38,060 nt of DNA from a virus. Positions within the stretch are counted from its first letter, which is position 1. The number at the start of each line of letters is the position of its first letter. The translations under genes were made by a program, and so were the position numbers. This document shows positions 7,479 through 31,167 of the stretch, piece by piece. Where the stretch lies: the IMG/VR virus record IMGVR_UViG_3300022751_000030, positions 1 to 38,060 of that record. One strand, written 5' to 3'. The notes below the pieces were generated by a model, which saw nothing but the letters and a program-made list of their open reading frames with translations, searched no databases and was not told the origin of the DNA.

Positions 7479-7524
7479 ATGCCCGTATTGTCTTGATTAT
7501 ATCAGTAAGGATAGGCATTAACAA
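7479..7524 (-). promoter_or_regulatory. Late promoter with ATACGGGCAT element
   Basis: Minus strand: -35 TTGTTA (7519-7524), 17-base spacer, TGA then TATAAT (7496-7501), 7 bases, ATACGGGCAT (7479-7488). The same arrangement occurs at 11578, 15038, 19725 and 24189. Confidence 0.75.
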
Positions 7525-7527
7525 TAC

Positions 7528-7911
7528 CTAAGCAGGAGTCTCAAACAGATAGGCGTTGGCTGAGATAGTAAAAGCTGCGGAGTTTGTCGCGACTCCCGTG
7601 TAGTTCACTAAAAAGAACGTAAGTGTGATTGAGCCACCTGATCGTGAGCCAACGGTTGCAACTCTGTAGTTTGCATCAATGGTGATGTCTTTTAGGGGGA
7701 ACTTATACCAGTCAGAGGGCGTAGAGGAGAAGTTAATTTGAATCTGTGAAAAGTTACTGGCGCTATCAATAGGAATGGTAATGCTGCCTACGTTCACAGC
7801 TGTTAGTGAGTTGGTAGCTGGAACAGCCAAAGAGCCTTCCCCTCTATCGTAGTTTAGGAAGTACTTATATCTTGTTGAGAACAGAACGTTTGAGGGGTTA
7901 GGATTACTCAT
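7528..7911 (-). CDS. Minor tail protein, paralogue 3 of 3
   Basis: 127 residues from the ATG at 7911, which lies inside the end of the upstream gene (the coding regions overlap by 8 bases). An earlier in-frame start only reads antisense-quality sequence inside that gene. Begins MSNPNPSNVLFSTRYKYFLN, with the same SNVxFSTRY opening as the next two genes, and is otherwise beta-rich. The last virion gene before the HNH insertion. Likely a small tail or base component repeated by gene duplication; exact role unknown. Confidence 0.7.
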   Translation of the reverse strand: MSNPNPSNVLFSTRYKYFLNYDRGEGSLAVPATNSLTAVNVGSITIPIDSASNFSQIQINFSSTPSDWYKFPLKDITIDANYRVATVGSRSGGSITLTFFLVNYTGVATNSAAFTISANAYLFETPA

Positions 7912-8251
7912 CGAGGTATATCCTCCAGTAGATAGGCACATTCGCGGGTGATCCTGTCGCATTAGTCATTTCGGCAAATACAGCAGAAGAAGTGATACGG
8001 AGAGTGCCTGTTATGAGAAGAGTTGTTCCAGGCCCGCCGTTACTATTAGAGTACTGATACCTTACTAGCGGCCATAACTGCCCAGAGATAGGCTCGAACC
8101 ATGCTTTTGCTCTCGGAATATACCCTAGGCTGTGAGTAGCTAGTAGGATGGAGTTGGTGCCTGTAGGGACGGTAAACGTATCATCATCGTTATCGTATAT
8201 CTTCAAGAAGTTATACCGAGTTGAAAAAATAACGTTACTAGGCGTGCTCAT
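7904..8251 (-). CDS. Minor tail protein, paralogue 2 of 3
   Basis: 115 residues from the ATG at 8251, which overlaps the upstream stop (ATGA). Opens STPSNVIFSTRYNFLKIYDN, closely matching the gene at 7528 and, more distantly, that at 8248. SLGYIPRAKAWFEPISGQLW in the middle is typical of small phage proteins built as a single beta domain. Short, coupled genes with similar starts indicate tandem duplication and divergence. Confidence 0.7.
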   Translation of the reverse strand: MSTPSNVIFSTRYNFLKIYDNDDDTFTVPTGTNSILLATHSLGYIPRAKAWFEPISGQLWPLVRYQYSNSNGGPGTTLLITGTLRITSSAVFAEMTNATGSPANVPIYWRIYLDE

Positions 8252-8619
8252 GATTTCCACTCCGCCGTAAGGATATATTGGACTGTTGCGGGCGAAAGAG
8301 TTTGATTGACGGCCACAACAACGAAAGTTGTAGTTGTAGAGTAAGCAGCGACAGTGACGGTTTGAAATACAGGAGAAGGACCAGCGAGGTTGGGAATGGG
8401 CATATCCATATCTTGCCACGTGGTTCCCCCATCCAGAGAGTAGATAAGCTCTAAAAAGCAAGTCTGACCGAAGGTATGGTTAATAACATCATGGGTCCTC
8501 TGAGATAGAATTGTAGAACCACTCGCCGCAGCTGTGAAAGACCCTGGGTACACTTCAACTATCTTGTCGGTTGGATACCGAGTGGTAAACTGCATGTTTT
8601 TTGCTTGAGCAGGAGTCAT
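8248..8619 (-). CDS. Minor tail protein, paralogue 1 of 3
   Basis: A 123-residue beta-rich protein. It opens MTPAQAKNMQFTTRYPTDKI, sharing the NxxFxTRY start with the two following genes. YSLDGGTTWQDMDMPIPN resembles a BNR-type sialidase-repeat loop (S-x-D-x-G-x-T-W), which in phage proteins is often structural. It directly follows the gene at 8619 and overlaps its neighbour by 4 bases. Confidence 0.7.
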   Translation of the reverse strand: MTPAQAKNMQFTTRYPTDKIVEVYPGSFTAAASGSTILSQRTHDVINHTFGQTCFLELIYSLDGGTTWQDMDMPIPNLAGPSPVFQTVTVAAYSTTTTFVVVAVNQTLSPATVQYILTAEWKS

Positions 8620-8897
8620 TAATACTGCTCAGTTATGTTAAAACCCGACTTACTCACTCCAATGTCGATCTCGCCGTCTGGTGCAATACCGATCAAAATA
8701 CGGGAGTTATTGTTTGAGTCATAGTATAGAGAACCATAACCGCCTTCGTAGGGAAGCTTCCCTTGAAGGATAGAGTTACCACCAGGCTGCTTGAAGGCTT
8801 TGACTGTCTGCTCCTTATCAAACTGACGAACCATGTCATTTACTTGCGAATAGTTCTGGAGTGTTGAGTTTTGTGTTGTTAGTGGGCGAAATGGCAT
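8619..8897 (-). CDS. Small tail protein
   Basis: A 92-residue protein whose start overlaps the stop of the 661-residue tail protein (TAATG). The C-terminal half (YGSLYYDSNNNSRILIGIAPDGEIDI) looks like a beta-hairpin repeat of the type that attaches fibres; the N-terminal half is polar and helical. Position suggests an adaptor between the tail body and the three following paralogues. No family recognised. Confidence 0.6.
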   Translation of the reverse strand: MPFRPLTTQNSTLQNYSQVNDMVRQFDKEQTVKAFKQPGGNSILQGKLPYEGGYGSLYYDSNNNSRILIGIAPDGEIDIGVSKSGFNITEQY

Positions 8898-10882
8898 TAT
8901 CGTAACCTCCTTGTTTGCATAACGAACGTGTGACCGAGGAAGCTTTGAGGCTGCCTTGTCGCATAGTGGATGTAACGAATGGCGATACGCCTATACTCAC
9001 CAGGCACGTAGAGGTAAGACTGGACTTCAGCCGTAGTACCATACGTAACTCCACTTCCGTACGTAACCCCACTGCCATACGTTGATCCTGCGCCCTGCAC
9101 ACTTGGCGAGCTATACGTTTGCCAGTTGTTCCGTAGGTCGGTTGCGTACTGAACAGTAATAGAGTAATTACCACTTTGGGCCTCAAATCGAGGTTCCCAA
9201 TACCTGATCTCCTTCAAAACTGCGGGGGACTGTCCAACTATATAGTGAGTTCTTAGCTCAAAGTTAATATCACCACCAAGATTTGTGTCATCGTTTGATT
9301 CGAGTTCCTGCCAGTAAACCTGACCGATAAGTGAGCTACCCACCATAAGGGCATCGTTGTCTCTAAAGGCATTGGCAGCCCGACTCACGTAACTGTCTGT
9401 GTCATGGCTCTCGGTAGTTCCCCCGCCGTCCCCGTAGTTGAGAGCAAAGACATAGCACTCGCTGTTACCGACTGTTCCTGCAGGAGTGAACCAGACATAC
9501 AAGAGCCCGTTACTTACAGAGACACAAGCGTTCTCCTTATTCGGCATCATAAGAACCTCGTTGTATATGTCTTCACTGAGAAGCTGTGCCTCAGAACCAT
9601 TAGAACGATATACGCCATCGTTAGATAGGTAGTACACGAAATTATCATCTGAGGTGATCGTACGCTGAGAGAAGGTCCCCTTTTGGTCTGGGGCCTCGTC
9701 TAGTGAAAATGTAGCGTTATCGTCTCCTGAAAGAATATACTTGTTGTTTAGCGTAGGAATCAGCAAGTATCCATTAAGAGACTCTAGGGCCGTCACAGGA
9801 TCGCCTGTTTTTGGAGATGGGACGTAGATGAAGTCGGTCGAGGTGAACGTCTCATAGTCACCAAAGTTGGAGTAATCAACACGATTCGGGTCGTCCGTTC
9901 GCGCTAGGAACATCAGCCCCTTGTGCTCTCGCAGGGTGCTGTAGTTTGTCGAGTTCACCTGAGATTCAGTAGTAAAGTCCCACTTTCTATATCCATCATA
10001 TCCATTCACGTAATAGACAACATCATTCACCAAACAGAACTCGTACCGCGTAGCCGAAGCATTGAGTCCTGATTTAACTGTAGTTAGAGCCCCCGTAATG
10101 TTATTAACTGAGTACAAGGTTGTCCCCTGTACAAAGAGTGTTACTTTCGTACCGTCGCTCTTGTAAGCTCTTATAAGTCCTATCACGCCTCCACTGGTCG
10201 CGTAGTGCTCCTTGAAATTCAGTGAGAACGAGCCCGTAGCCCATGTCATGCCAGAATCAGTAGATGTTAGCGCGGTTGTCTCGGCTGTTGTTCCACTCCA
10301 ACTGTAAGTGTTAAGCCCTGTCGATTGGACATATACCACGATCCAATAGTTCGTTGCTGCGGTAATATTTGGGGCCTGGGCAAAGCGAGCCGTTAGATAC
10401 TGATATGACCCCGTTACTGATGAGCCCGCCACCGAAGAGCGGGCAAGTAGTACGCCTGGCTTACTCGACACATTTGACCAGACTTCTACAATGACCGTGC
10501 CCGTTGCACTTGTGGTATTTCTAATGTTTATCTCAACCTTGGAAAGCCGCTGGGTGACAGACGAAGTGAAGACCTGCGCCAGTCGTACGGTCTCACTGAA
10601 AGACTTGTTAGAAGCACCCGTGACAGAAGTAATGGTGTCGTCCTGAGTCTCTCCTGCAGCTACGGAGTGAAAATCGACTCCTTTGCGGTTTGTGTACTCA
10701 CCAAGTGTAGCGATGCGAGCATCTTGAGCAAGTCGCCACATATTGGAATCACCACTCTTAAAAGGAATCTTGTCATTTGATAAGAAAGAGTTATACCCTT
10801 TGCTATAGTCGTTAATCTCGTAGGTTTCAGATCGACTACCCAGAGAAGGAATTGATTTGGTTACTCGTTTCGCCCAAGGCAC
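8897..10882 (-). CDS. Large tail protein, nozzle/hub type
   Basis: A 661-residue beta-rich protein coupled closely to the adaptor gene upstream (11 bases). The opening (SETYEINDYSKGYNSFLSND), the block around residues 250-400 with repeated short beta blades (YSVNNITGALTTVKSG, VYYVNGYDGYRKWDF, YLSNDGVYRSNGSEAQ), and the C-terminal YRRIAIRYIHYATRQPQSF are characteristic of the propeller-containing tail nozzle or stabilisation proteins of P22-like podoviruses. Residues 100-200 resemble a carbohydrate-binding jelly roll. Three near-identical YGSGVTYG/TYGSGVTYG units occur near residue 600. Confidence 0.65.
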   Translation of the reverse strand: MPWAKRVTKSIPSLGSRSETYEINDYSKGYNSFLSNDKIPFKSGDSNMWRLAQDARIATLGEYTNRKGVDFHSVAAGETQDDTITSVTGASNKSFSETVRLAQVFTSSVTQRLSKVEINIRNTTSATGTVIVEVWSNVSSKPGVLLARSSVAGSSVTGSYQYLTARFAQAPNITAATNYWIVVYVQSTGLNTYSWSGTTAETTALTSTDSGMTWATGSFSLNFKEHYATSGGVIGLIRAYKSDGTKVTLFVQGTTLYSVNNITGALTTVKSGLNASATRYEFCLVNDVVYYVNGYDGYRKWDFTTESQVNSTNYSTLREHKGLMFLARTDDPNRVDYSNFGDYETFTSTDFIYVPSPKTGDPVTALESLNGYLLIPTLNNKYILSGDDNATFSLDEAPDQKGTFSQRTITSDDNFVYYLSNDGVYRSNGSEAQLLSEDIYNEVLMMPNKENACVSVSNGLLYVWFTPAGTVGNSECYVFALNYGDGGGTTESHDTDSYVSRAANAFRDNDALMVGSSLIGQVYWQELESNDDTNLGGDINFELRTHYIVGQSPAVLKEIRYWEPRFEAQSGNYSITVQYATDLRNNWQTYSSPSVQGAGSTYGSGVTYGSGVTYGTTAEVQSYLYVPGEYRRIAIRYIHYATRQPQSFLGHTFVMQTRRLR

Positions 10883-10893
10883 AATTAACCTCC

Positions 10894-11565
10894 TTAAAAG
10901 TTTCTATTTCTAACGGCCATTTTGTTAATACGCATCCTCATTGCGGTGCCCACTTGCGGGACGCTGTACTTAACGACAAGCTTCTGCAGTATTTCGTCGA
11001 ACTTGTTTTGTAAAATAGCGGCTTGATCGTAGTTATCTTTTACTTGCAGAACTCGGTAAGCAGCCCCCACGATAAGGCCCTCCACAAACTCACTCGGAAC
11101 TTCTGGCACATCTGAGTTGCTGACAAGTTCCGTGGGCTTCTTATAATAGCGCAGAGATACACTTAAGCTGGCTACTGGAGCTGGGAATACCCGAATGGTT
11201 TCCTCGTAGAAATACCAGTAGGTAGGAATTCCAGGCGGGTGGAGTACAGAGTCCTCTGGATTAGGGTAAAAGCTGTCGATCTCTCGAACGTCTTTATACT
11301 GCAGAACGCTTTGTGTTCCACCCGTGGTGAGCATTAAGTCTAGGGCCTGGACATAATTAGCAGGCAAGCCCGAACCATTAGTAATGTCAGATTGCCCAGC
11401 TGTGAGGTTGTAGGTTTGGATCTCCTGAGTAAAAGGCAGTCGATATTCGTTAAATATATCATTTTGAGCGTCGTTAATATACCCAACAATCTCTGTGCTG
11501 GAATATCCCGTATCTCGGATGCGCTGTTGTACTCTAGTAACTATATCGCCAAGAATGTAGCTCAC
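10894..11565 (-). CDS. Head-to-tail adaptor protein
   Basis: A 223-residue, largely helical protein. VQQRIRDTGYSSTEIVGYIN (helix pair at the N-terminus), NDIFNEYRLPFTQEIQTY, the central LPANYVQALDL and the IPTYWYFYEETIRVFPAP hairpin are typical of the gp4/gp6-like adaptors that bind below the portal in podoviruses. It directly precedes the large tail protein and follows late promoter 11578. Basic C-terminus (RMRINKMAVRNRNF). Confidence 0.65.
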   Translation of the reverse strand: MSYILGDIVTRVQQRIRDTGYSSTEIVGYINDAQNDIFNEYRLPFTQEIQTYNLTAGQSDITNGSGLPANYVQALDLMLTTGGTQSVLQYKDVREIDSFYPNPEDSVLHPPGIPTYWYFYEETIRVFPAPVASLSVSLRYYKKPTELVSNSDVPEVPSEFVEGLIVGAAYRVLQVKDNYDQAAILQNKFDEILQKLVVKYSVPQVGTAMRMRINKMAVRNRNF

Positions 11566-11577
11566 GCGGTGGCTCCG

Positions 11578-11603
11578 ATGCCCGTATTAACTTGATTATA
11601 CCA
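11578..11603 (-). promoter_or_regulatory. Late promoter with ATACGGGCAT element
   Basis: Minus strand: TGG then TATAAT (11595-11600), 7 bases, ATACGGGCAT (11578-11587). No good -35 at 17 bases; the extended -10 probably compensates. It lies 13 bases from the adaptor start codon, so the element would be in the 5' leader of the adaptor message. Confidence 0.7.
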
Positions 11604-11634
11604 CTTCTCACGTCAAAACCCTTCTTTAATATTG

Positions 11635-12237
11635 TTACGCAGCTTCGTACATCACAGAGAACGATATAGCCCGTCCGTTTGCACCTGGGTAGCTGTTATC
11701 CGATGAGAATGTCATATAACATCGCGTGGTTGTATCCATGACTCCCGTAACCCCACGTCCAGTGGCGTTGATTTCACGTCCGTGTAGAGGGCCGCTGGTG
11801 ATTCTTGCTGCCGTGACTGGCAGGGGTACGTAGATACCACTTGCAGCCGTGCCGTTCGTTGTGATGCTGATAAGGCCGTTATAGATGACCATTTTACCGA
11901 ACTGTTGGTAATAAGCCTGACAAGATACTGAGGTAAACGTACCACTCCCTGCCGTGATAGTTGGGGTAGAGGAAATCCACGCCGCTCCAACCCCTGAGGC
12001 AGAGTTGAACTGGTCCACAACTGGAGTGGTGAGGGTCTTATTAGTTAAAGTATCCGTACTTGCCCGACCTACTAAAGTGTCTGTCGCTGCTGGCATTGTA
12101 TAGGTGTTTGCACCACCCGCGCTTAGTGTTACGTTTCCTGCTGTGAGTGTTAGGGTACGAGGTGTTGTTCCGCCAGCTATGCTATACCCATCCGCGTTAG
12201 GTGTAATGTCGAGATTTACTGCTGAATTCTTTGCCAT
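11635..12237 (-). CDS. Tail fibre/appendage protein
   Basis: 200 residues. The N-terminal half has fibre-shaft features (TLTLTAGNVTLSAGG, TDTLTNKTLTTPVVDQFNSA), the last being a very widespread phage fibre motif. The C-terminal half (STPTITAGSG, YYQQFGKMVIYNG, ISFSVMYEAA) parallels the C-terminus of the gene at 3741. Probably host-contacting. It lies downstream of the two other fibre genes and ends before late promoter 11578. Confidence 0.7.
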   Translation of the reverse strand: MAKNSAVNLDITPNADGYSIAGGTTPRTLTLTAGNVTLSAGGANTYTMPAATDTLVGRASTDTLTNKTLTTPVVDQFNSASGVGAAWISSTPTITAGSGTFTSVSCQAYYQQFGKMVIYNGLISITTNGTAASGIYVPLPVTAARITSGPLHGREINATGRGVTGVMDTTTRCYMTFSSDNSYPGANGRAISFSVMYEAA

Positions 12238-12247
12238 CTTATTCTCC

Positions 12248-12907
12248 TTATGAAGTTGTTATTGTCGTTACATTTGCGAGAGAGGAAATATTATTTACTG
12301 AGAGTGTGGGGAAATCTAGCGTGTAGGTAACTGACAGACTAACCGCAGTCCAACCGAAGGAGCCAGAACCCGCGACTGCCGACCATGCACCAGAGAAAGT
12401 CCCAGTTTGATCCCAATCACTTCTCAGACCAAATTTACTGACGCCATTTTTAGTAATATTAGACAGCCCCGAACCGTTTAGCGCTATCGAAAAGTTGTTG
12501 CCGACACTTGAATATGCAACGCTTCCAAAGCTTGTCGAGCCTACATTACTATAATCGGAGTTTGCAAGCACAGAATTGCTTGCAGGGTTTGAAGAAACCA
12601 ATACAACTGCAGGGCTCCCAAGGCCATTAGAGCTCGTGACTACACCTGACATTGTAATCGTAGCTGCAGTAATAGTCGCTCCGACTGGTATTGCAGACGT
12701 ATCAAATAATATAATACTTCTCTGTAAGTAAGCGTACTGGTTGAGAACTGCTGACGCCATTAGGAAGGTAGACCCAGACGGGGTACCACTTCCAGTTCCT
12801 ACTCCTCCTCGTATTGTTGAAAAAGCCTCAGATGCTACGCTACGTTCTACATAGCCCTTTAGGCTCGCGGCGAACGTAGGATTATACGTATTAGTAACAG
12901 TAGCCAT
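12248..12907 (-). CDS. Fibre-associated beta-sandwich protein
   Basis: 219 residues from the ATG at 12907, which overlaps the preceding stop (TAATG). A longer frame to 12970 exists but has no ribosome binding site. Secondary structure looks entirely beta. RSIILFDTSAIPVGATITAA resembles the DNRLRE/jelly-roll type domain of surface and fibre proteins. Ser, Val and Thr make up a large share. No enzyme residues seen. Context: second gene of the fibre cluster. Confidence 0.6.
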   Translation of the reverse strand: MATVTNTYNPTFAASLKGYVERSVASEAFSTIRGGVGTGSGTPSGSTFLMASAVLNQYAYLQRSIILFDTSAIPVGATITAATITMSGVVTSSNGLGSPAVVLVSSNPASNSVLANSDYSNVGSTSFGSVAYSSVGNNFSIALNGSGLSNITKNGVSKFGLRSDWDQTGTFSGAWSAVAGSGSFGWTAVSLSVTYTLDFPTLSVNNISSLANVTTITTS

Positions 12908-14316
12908 TATACAACCGTTACGTTTCCTTGAGATGATATGACACTCCAGGTGGTGTTTGCTACGATACAAATGACTCTCACTGCGTCATAACGGTTAAGG
13001 CTAGCGAGAGAGCCCCCTGTGCCCGTTGTAGTAACGTTAGTACCAAAGTTCACCAGCTGGCTGGCATTCTGAGCTAATTTCCAGCCACCAGCCCCAGAAC
13101 CAGCAATCTCTACTATAGAACCGACTGCCGCAGTAGATGGAAGGGTTATTGTAACTAGGCCAGCGTTGTTTGCTATGTATCCGTTATTGATTGCGGCGGC
13201 CTGGGATGTACCCGTGACACTAGTCCAGGTTATGCCTGCGCTTCCGTTAGATGCGGCAGTGATGAGACCTTTTGCGTTTACCGTGATGCTCGCATTAGTG
13301 AAAGAGCCAACGTTTGAGTTCACTGTCGCCAGCGTGGCCACCGCTGAGCCTGGGCCGCTGGCGGTAATATCACTTGTTAAGGCAGTGATATAGTTGCCTG
13401 TGGCCTGCTTAGCATTCAATTGTGTCTGAATGGCAGAAGTAACCCCATTCACGTAACCTATCTCCGTTGCCGTTGTCGTAGCTGGTGTAATAAACCCAGA
13501 ACCATCAGAGACTAACGCACGGCTGATAGTTGTGGCCGCAAGCTTAGTAAGCCCAATAGCAGCTGATGCATTTACGTCAGCGTTGATAATGGCACCCGCG
13601 GCGATCGCAGTAGCAAAGGATCCAGTTCCAGATCCCGTGACATCACCTGTAAGAGTGATCGTCTGGTCACCAGTGTTAGTCCCCGTGATGGCTGCGAGCT
13701 TAGTCTTTTCTGTCTGAGAGTACTGCTTGTAAGTCGTACCGTCTCCCACGTCGTCTTGGTTCAGTGTAATGTTAGAGCTGAGAGCTTTACCATTCACTGT
13801 TCGCGTGTTAGGTACAAGCCCAGATAAGTCTTGATCCCCTGTATTTGTCCCTGACAAGTTAGAGCCTGTAACTGACCCAGATGCCGCAACTGAGGTGGGA
13901 GTAATAGCGCCGAGGCTTAAAGCAATAACGCCGTTTGTGGTAACGGGAGAACCAGAGACGCCAATGCCATTTGCACCCGACACCCCAACCGATGTAACTG
14001 TACCCGTACCACCAGCTGATATCCATTTAAGCCCAGTAGGAGTAGATGAATCGGAGCTAAGTACTTCTCCGTTGGCTCCTACTGGCAGCCTTGCATCAAC
14101 TGTCGAGTATGTATACACATCTCCCTTAGTCGTAAGTGGCGAAGCGCCCCCACCTCCAGTCGAGCTGATGATAGGATTCTGAGGATCGGTGTTATTAACA
14201 GTAATATTTGTGCCAGCCACGACAGATCGGATACCTGACGAGCCTCCGCCTACGTAGGTAGTAGAGTTTTCTAGTGAGACGCCATTAGGCGCGAAAGGGT
14301 CAAGCCTGAACTTCAT
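12907..14316 (-). CDS. Long tail fibre
   Basis: A 469-residue protein built of fibre repeats: GTVTSVGVSGANGIGVSGSP, GTNTGDQDLSGL and GTNTGDQTITLTGDVTGSG, then ATTTATEIGYVNGVTSAIQT and NVGSFTNASITVNAKGLITA. These are well-known phage trimeric fibre segments. The first 60 residues (RLDPFAPNGVSLENSTTYVG) probably attach to the virion and the final 90 form a beta tip. It overlaps the preceding gene by 17 bases. Probably the main receptor-binding fibre. Confidence 0.8.
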   Translation of the reverse strand: MKFRLDPFAPNGVSLENSTTYVGGGSSGIRSVVAGTNITVNNTDPQNPIISSTGGGGASPLTTKGDVYTYSTVDARLPVGANGEVLSSDSSTPTGLKWISAGGTGTVTSVGVSGANGIGVSGSPVTTNGVIALSLGAITPTSVAASGSVTGSNLSGTNTGDQDLSGLVPNTRTVNGKALSSNITLNQDDVGDGTTYKQYSQTEKTKLAAITGTNTGDQTITLTGDVTGSGTGSFATAIAAGAIINADVNASAAIGLTKLAATTISRALVSDGSGFITPATTTATEIGYVNGVTSAIQTQLNAKQATGNYITALTSDITASGPGSAVATLATVNSNVGSFTNASITVNAKGLITAASNGSAGITWTSVTGTSQAAAINNGYIANNAGLVTITLPSTAAVGSIVEIAGSGAGGWKLAQNASQLVNFGTNVTTTGTGGSLASLNRYDAVRVICIVANTTWSVISSQGNVTVV

Positions 14317-15028
14317 TTACAGCCTCGCTAAGAATACGGTATCCAAACGTTGCCGCCTTAGGCCATGCTGCAGAATACCTACTCTTCCCAAATTTATATC
14401 GGAGGCTATTTTCAAGTGAGTTGTTTTCCATAATATACCAATTGCCAGATTCATTAACGAACCCAATATATTGGATGTTTGGGTCTGTGTCGTCGATATC
14501 ATGAGCTTTAAAGTCATCAAGGTCTACCCCTTCCGCCTCTGGGGTTTGAAGTGCCTCCTTGAGGGTCTTCTCTAGACCAGAGAGATCTAGCTTAGAGGGA
14601 GAAACTGTAATCGAAGGACTCACCTGAATAGCCTTTATAGACCGCGCTACTTCTTCCAGGTAGGGAATAAGTGCCTCTGACTTGTCAGTCTCGGCAACTC
14701 TTTCGGGTAGACTTGACAGCTCAGAAAGTAAGCTATCGAATAACTCCCTCACTTCTGTGACTCCGCTCTTCTTTATATCTTTACTCGCAATAGCAATCGA
14801 CTTGAGAAGTTCTGTAAGATTAGATGCAACCTCAGCGATTCTGGGGTCTTTACCAATCATTGTAGCCATCAGGATGTCGTGCATTGATTTAGAAAGGGTA
14901 TCAGTGGTCTGCGCCCCAGTAGAATTAACGGCACCAATAATAGAGTCAGTTCGTGCCTGCTCTGCGTCTAAATCCGCCTGTGTTTGTCTTTTCTGCTGGA
15001 TTCGAGAAATAGGATCGTTAGGGTTCAT
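14300..15028 (-). CDS. Coiled-coil structural protein, fibre base
   Basis: 242 residues. Residues 1-150 are helical with heptads (SRIQQKRQTQADLDAEQART, ELLKSIAIASKDIKKSG), and 170-242 form a small domain (NIQYIGFVNESGNWYIMENN, RYKFGKSRYSAAWP) similar to a short C-terminal domain found in many uncharacterised phage structural proteins. Directly below late promoter 15038 and coupled to the long fibre, so it may link the fibre to the virion. Confidence 0.6.
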   Translation of the reverse strand: MNPNDPISRIQQKRQTQADLDAEQARTDSIIGAVNSTGAQTTDTLSKSMHDILMATMIGKDPRIAEVASNLTELLKSIAIASKDIKKSGVTEVRELFDSLLSELSSLPERVAETDKSEALIPYLEEVARSIKAIQVSPSITVSPSKLDLSGLEKTLKEALQTPEAEGVDLDDFKAHDIDDTDPNIQYIGFVNESGNWYIMENNSLENSLRYKFGKSRYSAAWPKAATFGYRILSEAVNEVQA

Positions 15029-15037
15029 ATTTAACCT

Positions 15038-15063
15038 ATGCCCGTATTGAGTTCATTATAGCA
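15038..15063 (-). promoter_or_regulatory. Late promoter with ATACGGGCAT element
   Basis: Minus strand: TGC then TATAAT (15055-15060), 7 bases, ATACGGGCAT (15038-15047). The stop codon of the glycosyltransferase gene lies inside this -10 box, so the promoter marks the start of the fibre operon. Confidence 0.75.
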
Positions 15064-17814: not shown

Positions 17815-18634
17815 ACTTCCTCCCATCATTTAAGTACGGTTGGTTCTTCTCGTCGTATGAGATAAAGGGTGGAATTTCCTCCCAGAACTTTACATGGCGG
17901 ATTCTATTCAATGCTCCGCGGAACATCTCGCTATTCTCGGGGGTAATCATACCGCTCACCAAATCTCTGCCTACCTCTGTAAGCTCAATGATATCGTGAG
18001 CACCACTATTACTGCGCTTCTCACCCAAAGCTTTTAGCTTGTGTTGGCCGCCTGTACGCTCCATCGGGAGAATAGGCACGCCAGCTGAGTATAGTACCAT
18101 TCCGAAGTTAAGGTCATGTAGCCCATAGTGGATACCTTCTAGTGTACGGGGCCAGAAGTGAATAGTGTCCTTATCAATAAAAGGATCAAACGTTCTATCG
18201 GTTCGCCAGATAGGTTTTTCCATTTGTTGGAGAATCTCTTTAGCTACCAATAAGAACCCAGTACCCGTCCAATATGCAAAGCCCTGTGGGTCGTGTAAGA
18301 CGGTCGAGTCTCCGTCCTGCTGAAATGGGTAGTCAAGAGCAACTGCAGGGTAGTTCTGTGCGAACATTTCCTTCAGTATGCCCTTAGGAATAATCATATC
18401 ATCCTCACAGAAGAGCACTGCAAACACGCTGGGGTCTGCGAGTGCTCTTTCTGTAGGATCGTTAAAACAGTCTGGGAGGGATTTCCCATGAGCCCAAAAG
18501 ATTTCGTAGTCAAACCCCTCTAGCTCGCCAAGGATGTTCTCAAGTGTCTCCGAGAACATTAGGCCGCGTGAAGGGATAACGACGGCTAGCTTAGACGAGG
18601 CTGTCTTCGTGAGGTTCGGCACTAGTATTTGCAC
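17798..18634 (-). CDS. Glycosyltransferase-like protein, paralogue A
   Basis: 278 residues from a GTG at 18634 with a weak ribosome binding site; a start a few codons later is possible. KLAVVIPSRGLMFSETLENI, LPDCFNDPTERALADP and FCEDDMIIPKGILKEMF match the paralogue downstream, and the domain order is the same (N-terminal nucleotide-binding strand, EDDM acidic motif, then GTGFLL). The two are a tandem duplication. It overlaps the upstream head gene by 44 bases and starts the modification cassette. Substrate unknown. Confidence 0.65.
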   Translation of the reverse strand: MQILVPNLTKTASSKLAVVIPSRGLMFSETLENILGELEGFDYEIFWAHGKSLPDCFNDPTERALADPSVFAVLFCEDDMIIPKGILKEMFAQNYPAVALDYPFQQDGDSTVLHDPQGFAYWTGTGFLLVAKEILQQMEKPIWRTDRTFDPFIDKDTIHFWPRTLEGIHYGLHDLNFGMVLYSAGVPILPMERTGGQHKLKALGEKRSNSGAHDIIELTEVGRDLVSGMITPENSEMFRGALNRIRHVKFWEEIPPFISYDEKNQPYLNDGRKYETVR

Positions 18635-18926
18635 CCAGTTCGTTAGTTAGTTCTTGAAAGAAATCGAGAGTCTTTGAGAATTGTCGCAGATCATCCTCAA
18701 ACTGAGCTACTTTCTTGCCGTAGGCTGCCCTAGTAGCGTCTTCTTTAGCTCCAGCCAGCTCATGACGTGCCATAGCTGTATCAACGATGAGTCGGTTAAT
18801 GACTGCTTTTTGCTCGCCAACCTGTGCCTCTACAAAAGCCTGTTTCTGGCGATCATGGAGCTGTTTGTTAGGAGTAATCTTAAATTCTTTTGCTACTTCT
18901 TTGTATAGTTCTAATGGGGTTGCCAT
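18591..18926 (-). CDS. Helical head- or tail-associated protein
   Basis: 111 residues from the ATG at 18926 (GGAG precedes it); the frame continues to 18953 but without a signal. Almost completely alpha-helical, with ELYKEVAKEFKITPNKQLHD and a long charged helix (RAAYGKKVAQFEDDLRQFSK). No domain recognised. Position between small capsid-vicinity genes and the glycosyltransferases suggests a structural or chaperone role. It lies below a weak late-type promoter at 18936. Confidence 0.55.
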   Translation of the reverse strand: MATPLELYKEVAKEFKITPNKQLHDRQKQAFVEAQVGEQKAVINRLIVDTAMARHELAGAKEDATRAAYGKKVAQFEDDLRQFSKTLDFFQELTNELGANTSAEPHEDSLV

Positions 18927-18935
18927 ATCTTCTCC

Positions 18936-18962
18936 GCCCCCGTGTCCACTCAAATAATAGCA
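18936..18962 (-). promoter_or_regulatory. Possible degenerate late promoter
   Basis: Minus strand: TGC then TATTAT (18954-18959), 8 bases, then ACACGGGGGC (18936-18945), which resembles the ATACGGGCAT element of the other late promoters at 6-7 of 10 positions. It would drive the helical protein gene and the glycosyltransferase cassette. Confidence 0.35.
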
Positions 18963-19001
18963 TAAGGATTAAGAAAAGAATGTAACTTTTTATACAACGA
19001 T

Positions 19002-19217
19002 TTACTTCTTTGCGCCGTGCTTGTTGTTTGTACCAGCTGCAGGATAGCCTTCCGTGTTACGGAACTTCCCTGCGCTTTGAGCCTCTGCGACTTCTGTGTC
19101 AATCTTGAGCCACATCTCATGCTCGTTGAGCCCCTGATTAATTGGGAGTGCCCGTGTCTTATCTTCAATAACCTTAGGTGTATCCCCTACTGGGCTTGGT
19201 GTAATTGATTGAGCCAT
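19002..19217 (-). CDS. Small hypothetical protein
   Basis: A 71-residue polar protein, MAQSITPSPVGDTPKVIEDK at the start and GYPAAGTNNKHGAKK at the end, with a helical middle (NEHEMWLKIDTEVAEAQ). The start overlaps the region just after the stop of the 40-residue gene. No domain recognised. Part of the three-gene string between late promoter 19725 and the glycosyltransferase operon. Confidence 0.55.
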   Translation of the reverse strand: MAQSITPSPVGDTPKVIEDKTRALPINQGLNEHEMWLKIDTEVAEAQSAGKFRNTEGYPAAGTNNKHGAKK

Positions 19218-19218
19218 G

Positions 19219-19341
19219 CTACCTCTGTTCTGGTGTTTTACGTTTTAGTCTCTTTACTGCTTCCTTTGGAGTAGGAAGTTGGGTAGGTAGGTCTAGTTTA
19301 CCGCCTTTGTTCTTCTTACCGAGGTCTTTCATTTTTCCCAT
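19219..19341 (-). CDS. Very small basic protein
   Basis: A 40-residue, strongly basic protein (MGKMKDLGKKNKGGKLDLPT ... VKRLKRKTPEQR, 14 Lys/Arg). The ATG overlaps the upstream stop (TAATG), so translation is probably coupled. No domain. A nucleic-acid-binding or head-packaged role is possible from charge only. Ends at 19219 just before the ATG at 19217. Confidence 0.5.
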   Translation of the reverse strand: MGKMKDLGKKNKGGKLDLPTQLPTPKEAVKRLKRKTPEQR

Positions 19342-19712
19342 TATTCTTTACCTTCCCATTTACGAGTTTGTTCAATGCTTGCAACGATCTGGTCGTAGTG
19401 GTTACGAATTTGCTTCTCAGACTGTTCTGGTGTTGTGCCTGAGTCTCCGCTCATATTACGCCAAGACTGCTCAGCTGCCTGCCAAGCGCCCTCATCTAGG
19501 CCCTTAGGCACTTTGAGATCGGTCTTGAACTCTCCTGTAGCTTGAGGAGCCTGCGTAGGTTCTTGGGCCTTTTTCTTATTTACAGGGCCTACGGCGCCAT
19601 CTGAGTCTTTGCCAGTCTTTTTCTCAAACTTCTTCTGTTGAGGTGTATCGTTGTTATCAGTTGCTTTAGTCACTTCGTCTGGTTTACCGAATGGGTATTC
19701 GTATGTTGCCAT
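19341..19712 (-). CDS. Hypothetical head-vicinity protein
   Basis: A 123-residue protein. Residues 1-60 are low-complexity and charged (TKATDNNDTPQQKKFEKK, VNKKKAQEPTQAPQ), residues 65-123 helical (GLDEGAWQAAEQSWRNMSGD and IRNHYDQIVASIEQTRKW). First gene after late promoter 19725. No domain recognised; the arrangement suits a small structural or scaffold-like protein. Confidence 0.55.
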   Translation of the reverse strand: MATYEYPFGKPDEVTKATDNNDTPQQKKFEKKTGKDSDGAVGPVNKKKAQEPTQAPQATGEFKTDLKVPKGLDEGAWQAAEQSWRNMSGDSGTTPEQSEKQIRNHYDQIVASIEQTRKWEGKE

Positions 19713-19724
19713 TTTGGTTCTCCT

Positions 19725-19749
19725 ATGCCCGTATCTATGTTCTATTTTA
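19725..19749 (-). promoter_or_regulatory. Late promoter with ATACGGGCAT element
   Basis: Minus strand: TAAAAT (19744-19749), 9 bases, ATACGGGCAT (19725-19734). It overlaps the stop codon of the upstream HNH gene and lies 13 bases before the ATG at 19712. Confidence 0.6.
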
Positions 19750-20223
19750 ACGCTGTTGGCCCTTAATTACAAATTCGCCGTACATCTCAATCTCTTTATC
19801 CCTGCGAGCCTTTATAGCCTCTTCTACGGTCTTGAACGATCCAAGGTGAACCTTCTTACTATTAACGTAGACTTGAGCTGTGTAGTGGCCGTTGCGGTTG
19901 TCTAGGCTCACCCCTCTTACTCCTGTAGTGTTGTCGCTACGTATTTTAGCGTTTGCTAAGTTCTCAGACATGGTACATAACCTAAGGTTATCTCTAGTGC
20001 AATCAAGTTTCACACCCGATATATGGTCAATATACTCTTTCGAACCCAGCTGTCTGCCTAATGCTCTCTCCATGACCCACCTATGTAAGTAATGAGTCCC
20101 CTCTTTTCGAGTCTTATGCATAGCATACCCATTGCCACCGTAGTACCACTTGGTCGGGGACCAGTCAATCTCATCTATGATCGCCACCTTTCCTTGAGTA
20201 AGTTTAATAGTCACTATCCCCAT
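19747..20223 (-). CDS. HNH endonuclease with AP2 DNA-binding domain
   Basis: 158 residues. HNH core: HYLHRWVMERALGRQLGSKE, YIDHISGVKLDCTRDNLRLC (His-Asn-His type, catalytic His in IDH), then SENLANAKIRSDNTTGVRGV, and a C-terminal AP2-like domain (GVSLDNRNGHYTAQVYVNSK, HLGSFKTVEEAIKARR). This order is standard for free-standing phage homing endonucleases. AGGAGG precedes the ATG. It lies between the capsid terminator and late promoter 19725, so it is outside the capsid message. Confidence 0.85.
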   Translation of the reverse strand: MGIVTIKLTQGKVAIIDEIDWSPTKWYYGGNGYAMHKTRKEGTHYLHRWVMERALGRQLGSKEYIDHISGVKLDCTRDNLRLCTMSENLANAKIRSDNTTGVRGVSLDNRNGHYTAQVYVNSKKVHLGSFKTVEEAIKARRDKEIEMYGEFVIKGQQR

Positions 20224-20277
20224 GAGTGTTTCCTCCTCTATACCGTAATTATATGTGTTTTCAATATATCACGGCAA

Positions 20278-20304
20278 CAAAAAAGGGTCAAGTGAATGAC
20301 CCTT
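20278..20304 (-). terminator. Intrinsic terminator after the capsid gene
   Basis: Minus strand: an 8-bp stem AAGGGTCA (20297-20304) with TGACCCTT (20283-20290), 6-base loop, followed by TTTTTT (20278-20283 region). It lies 21 bases after the capsid stop codon and should end the terminase-portal-capsid message or reduce readthrough. Confidence 0.9.
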
Positions 20305-20324
20305 AATTTGCTTCAACAGTAGTA

Positions 20325-21209
20325 CTACGATTTTAATACGAAGCCGAAGTTAGTACGGAGTGCATTGTGTCCATAAAGTACATCAACTGTTACTAACCAA
20401 CCGAGGTGTTCCTGTTTGTACTGCGCTTGAGTACGAGGAGTCTGTTGGAGAGCAATCGCCCATGCTTCCTTGTGGAAGAATAGGTGGTTGTATTCGTCGG
20501 TTACAGTGTCAAGATAAACCAGGTTCTGGCTCATGTAAACGTCTGCACCGTAAATACGACCAATCTTACCGTTGCGGATTGAGTTGTCATCGCCACCGAC
20601 ACCGAGGGCGTCGTAACGAACATACTTGTCAATCGCGAGCAGCTCAGATTCACCCTTAGGTGCAACCACGATGCTTCGGTCTGATCGAGGAGCTTTGTTT
20701 TCGCTTAGGTAACGGTTTACCGTAAGAATGAGGTTGTCATTCAAGGCAGTACCGTAGGCACCGTAAGCTTGTCCAGCTGTTTTCCATGTGCTGGTCATGT
20801 TTGTTGCCAAGTCAGAGTCAATCTTTTCTGAGATCGCGTAAGCGGCTGCTTTAGTGTAGTCGCTACGAAGATCGTAGACTGATTGAATCTTAACGAGGTC
20901 TTCTACGATGAATGAGCTTTCATAGTGTTTGTTCAAAACAATCGTAGTCTTAGTTTCAGTGTTGTAGTTGAGTGTGACAACGGTGTTCTGAGATTTCAAG
21001 TTAGCTGTAATAGCCGAAACGTTAGGAATCTCAAGAGTCTGTCCACCAGCTTGTACGTCTGCGTCGTAGTGCTTGATCAATGGGAGGAGTACGAGGTTTG
21101 ATTTAACAAACATAAGTACTTCACGTGACCAAATGTTAGGACGGAAGACGTTAGCGGCAGTAGCACCGATGTTCACAGCACCCGAACCGTATAGTCCAGT
21201 TGTTGCCAT
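20325..21209 (-). CDS. Major capsid protein
   Basis: 294 residues, of the usual size for an HK97-fold coat protein without extra domains. RPNIWSREVLMFVKSNLVLL at the N-terminus, KHYESSFIVEDLVKIQSVYD (E-loop-like segment followed by a long helix), YAISEKIDSDLATNM and the C-terminal GHNALRTNFGFVLKS resemble coat proteins of podoviruses with P22-like organisation. Supported by the position after portal and scaffold and by a terminator directly downstream. GGAG is 8 bases before the ATG. Confidence 0.8.
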   Translation of the reverse strand: MATTGLYGSGAVNIGATAANVFRPNIWSREVLMFVKSNLVLLPLIKHYDADVQAGGQTLEIPNVSAITANLKSQNTVVTLNYNTETKTTIVLNKHYESSFIVEDLVKIQSVYDLRSDYTKAAAYAISEKIDSDLATNMTSTWKTAGQAYGAYGTALNDNLILTVNRYLSENKAPRSDRSIVVAPKGESELLAIDKYVRYDALGVGGDDNSIRNGKIGRIYGADVYMSQNLVYLDTVTDEYNHLFFHKEAWAIALQQTPRTQAQYKQEHLGWLVTVDVLYGHNALRTNFGFVLKS

Positions 21210-21231
21210 TAGTGTATCTCCATTTTAAAAA

Positions 21232-22014
21232 TTATTGTGCCATTACCTTATTGATCTCGTCGTAGTGTTTAACGAACCACTCCTGGCTGTTGCTCGCTAC
21301 TAGTTGATCAACGTTTTGTGGGGTAATCGCCGCACTGGCTGCGCCAGAATTGACTGCATTACCTCTAGGTACTGACGCTTGTTGTTTGTGGGCTAAGGAT
21401 TCGAGACCTTCTCGTTTCCCTTGTGATTTCAAAGCGGCAGGATTTTCAGCGACTGCCATAGCATAGCTCGCTTTTAAGATAGCTTCTGGAGAGCCATATA
21501 GACCTGATTCAACGGCAATCTTAGCCATATCAGCTTCGTATGCCTTAGCGTCAGGGTTTGAGTCCCAGAATTCTCTAATAGAGTCTTTGACCTCCATACG
21601 TTGTAGACGTTTCAAGACTTCGGGGTTTTGCCCTGTTGCCTCTGCTACTTGTGTAGCCGATTCGTCTGACATAGAGGACATCGTTCGTTCGAGTTCACTA
21701 GCCTTATTTGCTTTACTGTGCATCAGCTTCTCGGCGTTCATAGCCATTTTAGCTGCTTTTCTAGCGTTGTCGCTATCGAGTTCTAAGCCTTTCGTTTCAG
21801 CAAACTTTGCGAGTTGTTCATCTTCTTCAGATGGCTCACTGGTTGCCTCAGCCTCTTGTCCCTCTTCGGTGGTTTGTTCAACCGCTGTTGCTTGTTCCGT
21901 CTCGTCTGGTTCTGAAGCAGTTACGGCCATTCCTTGATCGTCAATAGCGATCCCATTAATGGTCTGTACTTCGCCAGATTCAACAGGAGCGTCAGTTGTG
22001 GTTTCTTCGTCCAT
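21232..22014 (-). CDS. Capsid scaffold protein
   Basis: A 260-residue protein. The first 75 residues are extremely acidic (MDEETTTDAPVESGEVQTIN, EEDEQLAKFAETKGLELDSD) and the rest is helical with heptads; the C-terminus contains SQEWFVKHYDEINKVMAQ, which may be the coat-binding segment. Size, charge, helicity and location between portal and coat fit a scaffold. An RNA element with two long complementary stems lies just upstream (22033-22094). Confidence 0.75.
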   Translation of the reverse strand: MDEETTTDAPVESGEVQTINGIAIDDQGMAVTASEPDETEQATAVEQTTEEGQEAEATSEPSEEDEQLAKFAETKGLELDSDNARKAAKMAMNAEKLMHSKANKASELERTMSSMSDESATQVAEATGQNPEVLKRLQRMEVKDSIREFWDSNPDAKAYEADMAKIAVESGLYGSPEAILKASYAMAVAENPAALKSQGKREGLESLAHKQQASVPRGNAVNSGAASAAITPQNVDQLVASNSQEWFVKHYDEINKVMAQ

Positions 22015-22032
22015 CGTTGTACCTTTCTTATC

Positions 22033-22094
22033 ACTAGCCCGAATAGTAGCTGGTTTAATACGGGCTAGTATTAATAATATTCCAGCTACTATTC
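22033..22094 (-). promoter_or_regulatory. Potential pseudoknot or alternating hairpins in the scaffold leader
   Basis: Two perfect complementary pairs interleave: ACTAGCCCG (22033-22041) with CGGGCTAGT (22061-22069), 9 bp, and 22041-22053 with 22082-22094, 13 bp (GAATAGTAGCTGG and its complement). Order A-B-A'-B' gives either an H-type pseudoknot or two mutually exclusive hairpins in the 92-base gap before the scaffold ATG at 22014. The CGGGCTAG sequences also resemble the late ATACGGGCAT element. Confidence 0.7.
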
Positions 22095-22105
22095 CGAATA
22101 ATGAT

Positions 22106-22324
22106 CTACAACTTCTTTACACCCCCTACGACACTCTGAATATGCTCAACAACAAGACGAATGCCGCGTGCTTGTTGTGTGAAGTCTCTAGCAAGTAATG
22201 GGTCTCTCTCAGCCTGCTCGTGTTGGTCATCAATCATGCTGTCGAGAGCTTTAACGAAATACTGCCCTTCTTCTGTTTTAAGGAAATTAGCATATCCAGC
22301 AGCTAGTTCTTTAGGGATGTTCAT
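22106..22324 (-). CDS. Small hypothetical protein between portal and scaffold
   Basis: A 72-residue helical protein, MNIPKELAAGYANFLKTEEG then DSMIDDQHEQAERDPLLARD and a C-terminal hydrophobic-helical VVEHIQSVVGGVKKL. The ATG overlaps the portal stop (ATGA). No family recognised. Position suggests a head morphogenesis function. Confidence 0.6.
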   Translation of the reverse strand: MNIPKELAAGYANFLKTEEGQYFVKALDSMIDDQHEQAERDPLLARDFTQQARGIRLVVEHIQSVVGGVKKL

Positions 22325-24177
22325 GCGCCCCCTTGCATATTGCGAAGTTTAGCTACTTTTGTAGCCATGTCGATTTCATGTTGTTCGGCTGCCTGATCCA
22401 TAGCTTGTTGATCTCTCTGAGCTTTAATCTCTAAGCTAGGGTCTGGAGGAGGAGCCATAGCCTCTGGAGGCATTCCGCCCATCATCCCAGCCATCTCAGG
22501 AGGAAGGCCCATACCAGGGTCCATAGGAGGCATTCCGCCAGCCATTGGATCACCGCCAGGCATGCCTTGAGGGGCCATGAGTAGTTCTACCTCATCTGGG
22601 TCAAGATCGAATGAGCGAGCAAGTACTAACTTCTTTAACTCGGCTTGATTCACCTCAGGGTCACCAAGGAACGCCCCTAGTAGTTCTTTGGCGTTCTCTG
22701 CCTGACGTTGCTTGTCGTTGTTGATAGTCGCCTCTAGTTGGACACGAGGCTCATAGTCACCTTTAAACTCTGAAGGATCGAACTCTTCCCATCGTGCTCC
22801 ATCTTTCCCAATAATACGAACCATCATAGGCTCAGTGACGTACAGTTGGATCATCCTGAAGACAATCTTAGCTACCTGGTAGAAATATCCGTTTTCAATC
22901 TGCGTTACCTTAAGAGAGAAGCGTTGGCCAGCTCCTGCAACCTGAGCGTTAATCTCAGTGGCTGTGGTAGAACCGCCTCCCTTCTCTCCTACGCCCTTCA
23001 CTACTTCATTAGAGGCAGTTGTCTCTCGTATCTCGTTCTTAAGGTTCTGGCGTTCTAAGAATGCGTCCTGTGGGATTGGTCGCTGTGGGATAGGCATTAA
23101 AGCGTTAGCCTCTACTGGGTAGACTGCACCAGGAAGGTTCTCAATCTCGCTAAGGAGGTGAGCGTACTTAGGGTCAAGTGTGTACATCTGGTTCAGAGTG
23201 TAAGTGATTGAGTCAATATTCTGGTTGGTAATGTCGTTTAATAGTTCCTGCTCGTCAGCGATAATATCAATCTCGCCTTTAGCATAGAAGAGAGACTCAT
23301 CTGTATAGTCACGAGCGTCTGCAAATGGCAAGAGGCCCTTAGGATACTCTGTACCGTTCGCTTCGTCCTTTGCTTTGTAGTAGTTGTCAGAGTCTTCGAT
23401 AATGACCGAACGGTTTGCAACAGAGACTGTCTTATCCAATGTCCAGTATTCAATAACCTCAATTTGGTTCTTCTCAGGCTCGATAACTGTAGACCCGTAC
23501 CACATATCTTTCTGTTGTTTGTCTGTATTCTCGCCTTGAGAACCGCCTTCAAACTTAATCTTATCAAGATTGGTATACTTCTTCTTCATTGGGTAATTAC
23601 CCTCAGCGTCAGGGTCTTTAGAGAAGTCTACAATCTCGAACTCTTCTAGCTCACTCTTCGATACAAGGTAGCGCCTACCACAGTATCTCGCGTTGCCCAG
23701 ACTTGAAGCGGTTGGGTCGATGAAGAAGTCCCTAATCGGAACGTTAATGAGAACTGGGTGGTCATTCTCCCATGCGAAGTAATCAACAGCGGTTCCAAGC
23801 TTAAACATGTTGCGGCCTGTGTTAATGATCTTCAGAGACCACTGGTCGCAGTCCCAGTAGAAGTCAAGTAGTGAGTTTAGGATGTCTGTCTTCTGATCCT
23901 GTCGCTCTTGTGGTGGGAGGTAGTTGAACTTAGGCTTAGCCCCGAAGAGTCCAGAGGTCAAAGTCTCTACTGTGCTAAAAGACATAGGGACGAAAGTATC
24001 AGTGATGCCTTGGTAGCCACGCTTTGTGCGCTGACCATTATAAAGACGGTAGCTATCTTCCCACCGTTTATGCCATGATCCCTGAGTGTATTCCCAGGCT
24101 CGGTTGAAGTCTTCCACCACTGTATTTAGCGTCGTATCTACAGTGTCAGATTTCTTTGAGGTCTTTTGAGTAGGCAT
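22321..24177 (-). CDS. Portal protein
   Basis: 618 residues, the usual size of podovirus portals. N-terminal WHKRWEDSYRLYNGQRTKRG and VPMSFSTVETLTSGLFG, then NSLLDFYWDCDQWSLKIINT, the central DFFIDPTASSLGNARYCGRR (the widespread DxxFDPxA portal motif) and ETTASNEVVKGVGEKGGGST followed by a long stem helix. The C-terminal 90 residues are Met/Pro/Gly-rich low complexity (residues about 530-585) then a helix, probably inside the head. Directly follows terL. Late promoter 24189 lies 12 bases upstream. Confidence 0.8.
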   Translation of the reverse strand: MPTQKTSKKSDTVDTTLNTVVEDFNRAWEYTQGSWHKRWEDSYRLYNGQRTKRGYQGITDTFVPMSFSTVETLTSGLFGAKPKFNYLPPQERQDQKTDILNSLLDFYWDCDQWSLKIINTGRNMFKLGTAVDYFAWENDHPVLINVPIRDFFIDPTASSLGNARYCGRRYLVSKSELEEFEIVDFSKDPDAEGNYPMKKKYTNLDKIKFEGGSQGENTDKQQKDMWYGSTVIEPEKNQIEVIEYWTLDKTVSVANRSVIIEDSDNYYKAKDEANGTEYPKGLLPFADARDYTDESLFYAKGEIDIIADEQELLNDITNQNIDSITYTLNQMYTLDPKYAHLLSEIENLPGAVYPVEANALMPIPQRPIPQDAFLERQNLKNEIRETTASNEVVKGVGEKGGGSTTATEINAQVAGAGQRFSLKVTQIENGYFYQVAKIVFRMIQLYVTEPMMVRIIGKDGARWEEFDPSEFKGDYEPRVQLEATINNDKQRQAENAKELLGAFLGDPEVNQAELKKLVLARSFDLDPDEVELLMAPQGMPGGDPMAGGMPPMDPGMGLPPEMAGMMGGMPPEAMAPPPDPSLEIKAQRDQQAMDQAAEQHEIDMATKVAKLRNMQGGA

Positions 24178-24188
24178 TTAACATCCTA

Positions 24189-24218
24189 ATACCCGTATCC
24201 AATGGTGGAATTATAGCA
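24189..24218 (-). promoter_or_regulatory. Late promoter with ATACGGGTAT element
   Basis: Minus strand: TGC then TATAAT (24210-24215), 11 bases, ATACGGGTAT (24189-24198, one base different from the other copies). Starts the portal-to-capsid message that ends at 20278. Confidence 0.7.
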
Positions 24219-24240: not shown

Positions 24241-24311
24241 GTGATTTACAAGAGAGCTGGGTTTGGACACGAAGTATTAAATTACTTAGTCCCAGCCCTC
24301 GTGTAAATCAC
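24241..24311 (-). promoter_or_regulatory. Long nested hairpin between terL and portal
   Basis: Arms 24241-24261 and 24291-24311 pair over 21 positions with one mismatch (24251/24301) and one wobble, and the loop contains a further 5-bp stem (AAGTA 24272-24276 with TACTT 24283-24287). The TerL stop codon lies inside the right arm. There is no T-run, so an RNase III processing site, a leader structure or a packaging signal is more likely than a simple terminator. Confidence 0.75.
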
Positions 24312-31135: not shown

Positions 31136-31167
31136 ATATTCTCCTTTTATCTATTAGAGGACAGATG

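Follow-up and report, generated by a model that had tools for sequence, protein, structure and literature searches.

The usual view of phage late genes is that proteins turn them on, be they sigma factors, activators, antiterminators or phage polymerases. The ops/RfaH and put/nut systems depend on promoter-proximal transcribed elements, which lie at a variable distance from the promoter and which a protein or RNA polymerase recognises. Phages also encode base-pairing RNAs, and the examples in the available part of PMC12197685 act on host genes, in superinfection or on single genes (DicF on ftsZ, STnc6030 on a tailspike messenger RNA (mRNA), sas on sieB). In the virulent phage PAK_P3, according to the available part of PMC4933390, abundant intergenic RNAs of about 100 nucleotides (nt) appear late, and RNA-based control was suggested for structural genes. 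Here we describe a short element, ATACGGGYAT, behind late promoters in IMG/VR virus record IMGVR_UViG_3300022751_000030 (38,060 bases; this whole stretch is called the window), and a structured RNA, the hub, whose loop is complementary to it. We put the probability at about 0.6 that the hub is a trans-acting base-pairing RNA for co-evolving 5′ tags of late mRNAs and controls the late regulon. The sequences suggest that this phage coordinates its late genes by RNA–RNA pairing; if so, a large family of uncultivated phages would have a late regulon defined by RNA.

Late leaders and the loop of a conserved hairpin

An earlier note on this DNA had pointed to five intergenic copies of the element behind −10 boxes, and a motif scan of the window returned exactly those five with zero mismatch (7479, 11578, 15038, 19725 and 24189). 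Every one of them is on the minus strand, in no called gene, and lies a short way 5′ of a minus-strand gene and its start codon. The spacing from the −10 hexamer is 7, 7, 7, 9 and 11 nt across the five sites, and four of them have TGN-TATAAT, 19725 being the exception. The 8-mer AYACGGGY occurs 11 times on both strands, compared with 2.76 expected from first-order Markov simulation, and seven of these copies fall within the noncoding bases (4850 of 38060). TATAAT-N5-12-AYACGGGY was found four times in the window against 0.01 expected.

The same note proposed that the element marks late (structural) promoters, which is supported, and in related phages it is conserved at the same genes. In the relatives a G-rich element follows the extended −10 promoters of these genes, and its sequence differs from lineage to lineage; versions at the same spot in about 60 related uncultivated phage contigs are AACACGGGC, AACATGGGC, AACAAGGCGGGT, AACATAGGCTG and AACTGAG. 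Where GGGY stands between a −10 and a start codon, the seventh nucleotide after TATAAT, the expected +1, is A at 100 of 113 sites. The element, which begins at about +1 to +6, therefore corresponds to the ~11 nt with which the predicted RNA opens, in agreement with the suggestion that it lies at or after +1, in the 5′ RNA leader. Its variable distance from the −10 was also seen between orthologous promoters, the spacing before gene 19341-19712 being 9 nt in the window and 7, 6 and 8 nt in L001, L002 and L003. A rigid promoter element or activator contact was rejected on account of this variation.

The hub was found through a plus-strand copy of ATACGGGC at 22058. Its fold beats 200 of 200 shuffles (z = −4.96). 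When 24 relatives were aligned, 93.2% of 500 cells were paired, 17 of the 21 pairs had compensatory changes, and a U.G pair was conserved in 22 of the 24 sequences. Cells changed on both sides numbered 138, compared with 41.5 (standard deviation 5.9) in shuffles. A covariance model run on 125 sources at E <= 1e-5 recovered 35 contigs, of which 11 had not been used for training, with hits on the coding strand between portal and scaffold genes. The window hub scored 75.6 bits with cmsearch, and reverse-strand scores were far lower than forward ones. The compensatory changes above shuffles, the conserved U.G pair and the strand difference together argue that the hub is a structured RNA. At this position Rfam gave only hits far below gathering scores, mostly to microRNA models, and elsewhere in the window only a transfer RNA (tRNA); the hub is an RNA family missing from Rfam release 15. 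In 81.6% of cells its loop GCCC (GCC core) could instead pair with GGGC in the 3′ flank of the hub itself, and the same 3′-flank Gs pair with the 5′ UC in an extended stem (97 with 12, 98 with 11), pointing to two mutually exclusive pairing states. An inner hairpin within the loop was unsupported beyond composition, and no conserved promoter was seen just upstream of the hub.

In the window, three leaders are exactly complementary to the loop GCCCGTATTAA over 9, 9 and 11 nt, and the portal leader over 7 nt. Loop and leader sequences change together across lineages. Loop GCCCGTATT goes with leader AATACGGGC in the window, G002 and G003; in G021 loop GCCCGTGTT goes with AACACGGGC (exact match TAACACGGGC, 10-11 nt), and in G004 loop GCCCATGTT goes with AACATGGGC (exact match TAACATGGGC, 10 nt). 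L069 has an exact match of 9 nt, CGGGCAGGG. Rarer cores behave likewise: G012 has loop CAGCCTACGTT with leader AACATAGGCTG, AGGCTG leaders fitting a CAGCCT loop, and in G015 the loop GCTCAGTT (GCTC), the 3′ flank GAGC and the leaders AACTGAG have changed jointly. One loop, ACCCTGCCTTGT, is present in G022, G024 and G026, and the different leaders ACAAGGCGGGT, ACAGGGCAG and ACGGGGCAGG all fit it when read by eye; the element leaders of these genomes have own-loop energies of −14.0 to −18.3. Both G026 and G021 have several distinct leader sequences that fit a single loop, which a protein motif would not predict. The earlier note had suggested that the element may act in the RNA leader or bind a phage factor. 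It does belong to the 5′ RNA leader, and a protein as sole partner is disfavoured. The partner of the element appears to be RNA and not protein, namely the hairpin loop of the same genome, with which the element changes together and which the note had not foreseen; a protein may additionally recognise the leader–loop pair.

For statistical analysis, leaders were gathered by promoter and start codon only, blind to the element. This gave 363 leaders, 149 of which lie upstream of orthologues of late genes of the window. Where the contig carries a hub, 75 of 110 such late leaders have a calculated pairing energy of <= −11 kcal/mol with their own loop, compared with 27 of 151 others. The threshold was reached by 16/16 leaders of tail gene 10894-11565, 30/36 of the portal gene, 11/13 of 6289-7020, 4/4 of 14300-15028 and 3/3 of 19341-19712. 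At least one matching late leader was present in 40 of the 41 contigs having both a hub and a late leader, the exception being L183. Swapping loops among contigs destroyed the signal: for tail leaders (16 contigs) the observed mean of −15.17 compared with −11.79 (standard deviation 0.61) and was reached in none of 20,000 permutations, and the same was true of portal leaders (35 contigs) and of 6289-7020 leaders (12 contigs). When each distinct loop core was represented by a single contig, the observed mean was reached 3 (tail), 0 (portal) and 33 (6289-7020) times in 20,000, and a permutation at the level of lineages (16 lineages) gave 0/20,000.

Along the DNA, complementarity is strongest at the predicted +1 (−14.2) and drops to about −4 by −9 and −4.9 by +12. 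Of 64 matching leaders, 55 have their predicted pairing begin at +1 to +3. The pairing ends a median 12 nt upstream of the start codon, and it touches the Shine-Dalgarno sequence in 15 of the 49 leaders with a recognised one. Eight contigs (L193, L196, L197, L198, L203, L209, L210 and L212) were added later, six of which carry the hub; L203 ends within the portal gene and L212 gave no hub hit. They represent four new lineages; in one of these, L210, the portal leader has an energy of −17.2 with its own loop (2/59 other loops as good), and in another, L196/L197, the value is −19.0 (0/59). The contigs without a hub (L092, G020, L102, L107, L088, L096 and L086) yielded no late leader for comparison at the genes examined.

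A weaker sixth site claimed at 18936 did not hold up. The sequence, ACACGGGGGC, is present, but its calculated pairing with the loop of the window is weak (−9.0, rank 55 of 56). Its orthologue in G003 is degenerate, and only 4/17 orthologous promoters of its gene, 18591-18926, reach the threshold. In L074, L076, L078 and L079 the promoters of the orthologue of 18591-18926 are followed by GGAGGGTAAC, which pairs with a ACCCTGCC loop at −12.9 to −15.0, perhaps only by way of a strong Shine-Dalgarno sequence.

Several observations weigh against the hub as a regulator of these leaders. The −11 kcal/mol threshold was chosen after the energies had been seen, six loops were trimmed by hand, and the hypothesis and its tests share most of their data. 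The portal leader often pairs less well (G001 −10.8, G003 −7.6, G004 −10.3) and does so poorly in G003, in G017 (−3.0) and in L183 (−4.9); the G017 leader of 6289-7020 is also poor (−6.7). Among the added contigs, the portal leader of the new lineage L193 is middling (−12.5, 21/59 other loops as good), and those of the new lineage L209 (−3.3) and of L198 (−4.8, from the known G019 lineage) lack the element. The cost of opening both RNAs consumes much of the duplex energy, the net energy being below 0 in 53/61 pairs and <= −5 in 40/61. RNAcofold, which cannot represent loop–leader pairing, predicted only a small gain, or none, for almost every pair to which it was applied. Some exact matches reach 2 nt upstream of the predicted +1, and some of the 27 non-late leaders that pass the threshold do so via the Shine-Dalgarno sequence.

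Features of the window and its relatives

The positions of the late leaders, their −10 hexamers and the hub are collected in Table 1.

Table 1. Positions of leader elements, promoter hexamers and hub in the window
Feature	Position	Strand	Remarks
Portal leader element ATACGGGT	24191..24198	-	5′ of portal gene 22321-24177; own-loop duplex −14.4 kcal/mol
Portal promoter −10 TATAAT with TG	24210..24215	-	from spacing, predicted +1 at the A lying 7 nt downstream
Hub hairpin, conserved structured RNA of ~80 nt	22028..22107	-	between gene 22106-22324 and putative scaffold gene 21232-22014
Hub loop segment GCCCGTATTAA	22055..22065	-	reverse complement of leader TTAATACGGGC
-10-like TAAAAT without TG, plus TTGTAA −35-like hexamer	19744..19749	-	promoter of gene 19341-19712
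Leader element ATACGGGC	19727..19734	-	5′ of gene 19341-19712
-10 hexamer TATAAT, preceded by TGC	15055..15060	-	promoter before gene 14300-15028
Leader element ATACGGGC	15040..15047	-	5′ of gene 14300-15028; 9 nt exact complement in structured region; duplex −17.7
-10 hexamer TATAAT, preceded by TGG	11595..11600	-	promoter before tail gene 10894-11565
Leader element ATACGGGC	11580..11587	-	5′ of tail gene 10894-11565; 11 nt exact complement TTAATACGGGC
-10 hexamer TATAAT, preceded by TGA	7496..7501	-	promoter before HNH gene 7022-7468
Leader element ATACGGGC	7481..7488	-	5′ of HNH gene 7022-7468, then 6289-7020; 9 nt exact complement

The minus-strand structural genes of the window are, besides the portal gene, those for the large terminase subunit (24308-25486) and major capsid protein (20325-21209) and the tail-type gene 10894-11565. 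The scaffold label of 21232-22014 reflects its position between portal and capsid, and it had no family hit. HNH endonuclease genes lie at 7022-7468, 19747-20223, 31766-32194 and 34577-34993; the first stands between a late leader and 6289-7020, which in relatives the leader precedes directly. The tRNA is a tRNA-His call at 31167-31236 (minus strand), with the anticodon ATG, unusual for bacterial histidine; Rfam confirms a tRNA. Bases 1-126 are repeated exactly at 37915-38040, beyond which the two copies diverge over the final 20 bases of the window; the record may be a complete genome, circularly assembled or terminally repeated, with a ragged end.

The late promoters have the features of sigma70-type extended −10 promoters, TGN-TATAAT with A about 7 nt downstream, and TG is present in 64/69 element leaders. 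Two early-type promoters on the minus strand (36853-36881 and 36307-36335) have TTGCAA and TTGCTA as −35 and a TGN −10 (near 36855 and 36309) and no leader element, and similar ones are found in G002, G003 and G012. The portal promoters of the window, L002, L005, L006 and L007 have an 11-nt spacer ending in ATYGG before ATACGGGY, most other late promoters there having 6-9 nt. The portal mRNAs of L198 (near 4939) and L209 (upstream of 5001) look leaderless, with the predicted +1 A two bases before ATG. Hub-less L086, L088, L096, L102, L107 and L170 appear to have other sequence in the place of the hub upstream of the scaffold gene, in several cases with a TTGACA-like hexamer.

Megablast found no close relative in the phage collection, where capsid relatives are at most ~31% identical. 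Uncultivated relatives numbered 15 by portal, 70 by capsid and 36 by tail gene, in overlapping sets. A portal scan with L014 matched only L014 itself, and one with L066 gave one further copy, from an already known contig. Run against the distant relative MW202692, the RNA model gave no hit in L184. The contigs of two capsid relatives were binned together in a single Candidatus Saccharibacteria metagenome-assembled genome (MAG), a weak hint that the host belongs to the Patescibacteria; the available part of PMC13059738, on another patescibacterial phage, contains nothing bearing on the element.

Proposed regulation by the hub and alternative explanations

If the hub acts in trans, each late operon would be transcribed from an extended −10, host sigma70-type promoter, and the first ~11 nt of its mRNA would serve as a tag complementary to the hub loop. 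The hub lies in the portal–scaffold intergenic region and would be made as part of a late transcript, from which it would probably be released by processing of the portal mRNA. Four of the five window leaders are on transcripts predicted to start downstream of the hub, so pairing there would be in trans; the portal leader is on the same transcript as the hub. The hub would then be a base-pairing riboregulator of the late regulon, acting on late-mRNA stability or translation from the extreme 5′ ends. Protection or activation is favoured over repression, a possible alternative, given that the predicted pairing begins at +1 to +3 and mostly ends short of the Shine-Dalgarno sequence. A bolder version, which we advance tentatively as somewhat short of an even chance, is that of a podovirus-like, family-wide hub-and-spoke system. 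RNA of the first late operon would pair with co-evolving 5′ tags and so license (cap, stabilise or translationally activate) the whole late programme, the regulon being set by RNA complementarity and not by a late transcription factor or phage RNA polymerase. The co-evolution of loop and leaders yields a sharp prediction that can be tested by compensatory mutation.

The main rival, which we consider unlikely, reverses the direction of control. Late-mRNA leaders would take the loop GCCC, break its pairing with the GGGC flank (a pseudoknot state) and switch the structure 5′ of the scaffold and capsid genes, whose output would then respond to how much late mRNA is present. In its favour, loop–flank pairing and the extended stem are mutually exclusive, the hub is just upstream of the scaffold start, and loop, flank and leaders changed together in G015. 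However, the distance from hub to Shine-Dalgarno varies between lineages, which makes the hub unlike an occluding switch; the short 3′ linker renders a full pseudoknot sterically doubtful; and one hub with many mRNA 5′ ends as targets is more regulator-like than sensor-like. A phage or host protein could instead read the element in nascent RNA or DNA, during antitermination or early elongation in the manner of ops/RfaH or put, with the hub carrying a copy of the site. The late-only, promoter-proximal occurrence of the element, its variable spacing and lineage-specific sequence, and the resemblance of the hub GGGC flank to leaders would all suit such a reader. Leaders of differing sequence within one genome nevertheless match one loop in different registers, and no early gene is common to all relatives. 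No NusG-like or RNA polymerase hit was obtained among the proteins scanned: PHROGs gave no single-subunit RNA polymerase in four sets of ten proteins (one scanned twice) of ~65 called genes, and Pfam gave no NusG-family protein in two partly overlapping sets of ten early proteins, a scan that covered only part of the early genes. We regard a protein reader as improbable.

Two further explanations are less probable still. GGGC near +6 to +10 might merely help host RNA polymerase to escape or pause at promoters without a −35. TG late promoters with the element indeed have no −35 signal (mean 2.71 matches, compared with 2.83 in shuffled upstream sequence), and TG promoters without it average 3.24, but an effect of the initially transcribed sequence leaves the loop match and covariation unexplained and is very improbable. 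That G-rich leaders match C-rich loops by composition is hardly credible: almost every loop has a GCC-like core and almost every leader is rich in G, yet swapping loops among contigs removes the signal, exact matches extend over 9-11 nt, and the rare cores of G012 and G015 have rare matching leaders. Other candidates were rejected. Against a host promoter habit, TATAAT-N5-12-ACGGGC was not above the reversed control in two relative-carrying MAGs. As for a general translation signal, no AYACGGGY copy was seen in the window before a start codon without a −10. Complementarity of ACGGGC to 16S ribosomal RNA was dropped as an explanation because element sequences differ by lineage.

Comparison with known systems

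Searches of open-licence papers on phage small RNAs and late genes, RNA at portal and scaffold genes, RNA motifs, late promoters and trans-acting RNAs listed no account of this leader–hub system, and among the literature matches listed none placed ATACGGG in phage promoters. The phi29 packaging RNA resembles the hub in being phage-encoded and in combining a variable sequence with a conserved fold. The present phage, however, has a gene for the large terminase subunit, and its RNA differs in being an 80-nt hairpin that sits between the portal and scaffold genes, has a loop matching mRNA leaders and fits no Rfam family. The late leaders are like ops and put/nut in being promoter-proximal, transcribed and variably spaced, but no such factor as reads those elements was found among the early proteins scanned here.

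The hub may work like a trans-encoded base-pairing small RNA, for which class it is a candidate: an exposed seed complementary to several predicted target mRNAs is present. Like the trans-encoded bacterial and phage small RNAs covered in the available part of PMC12197685, it is one structured RNA that exposes a loop complementary to several mRNAs in their 5′ regions. It differs in that the putative targets are the phage's own late operons, at their extreme 5′ end, and in that the hub lies inside a late transcript. The antisense RNAs of PAK_P3 overlap genes in cis, unlike a trans-acting hub. For the small RNAs of that phage, the available part of PMC4933390 gives at most single 11-nt candidate phage targets and reports no family-wide covariation, whereas in the phages described here loop and late leaders vary together from lineage to lineage.

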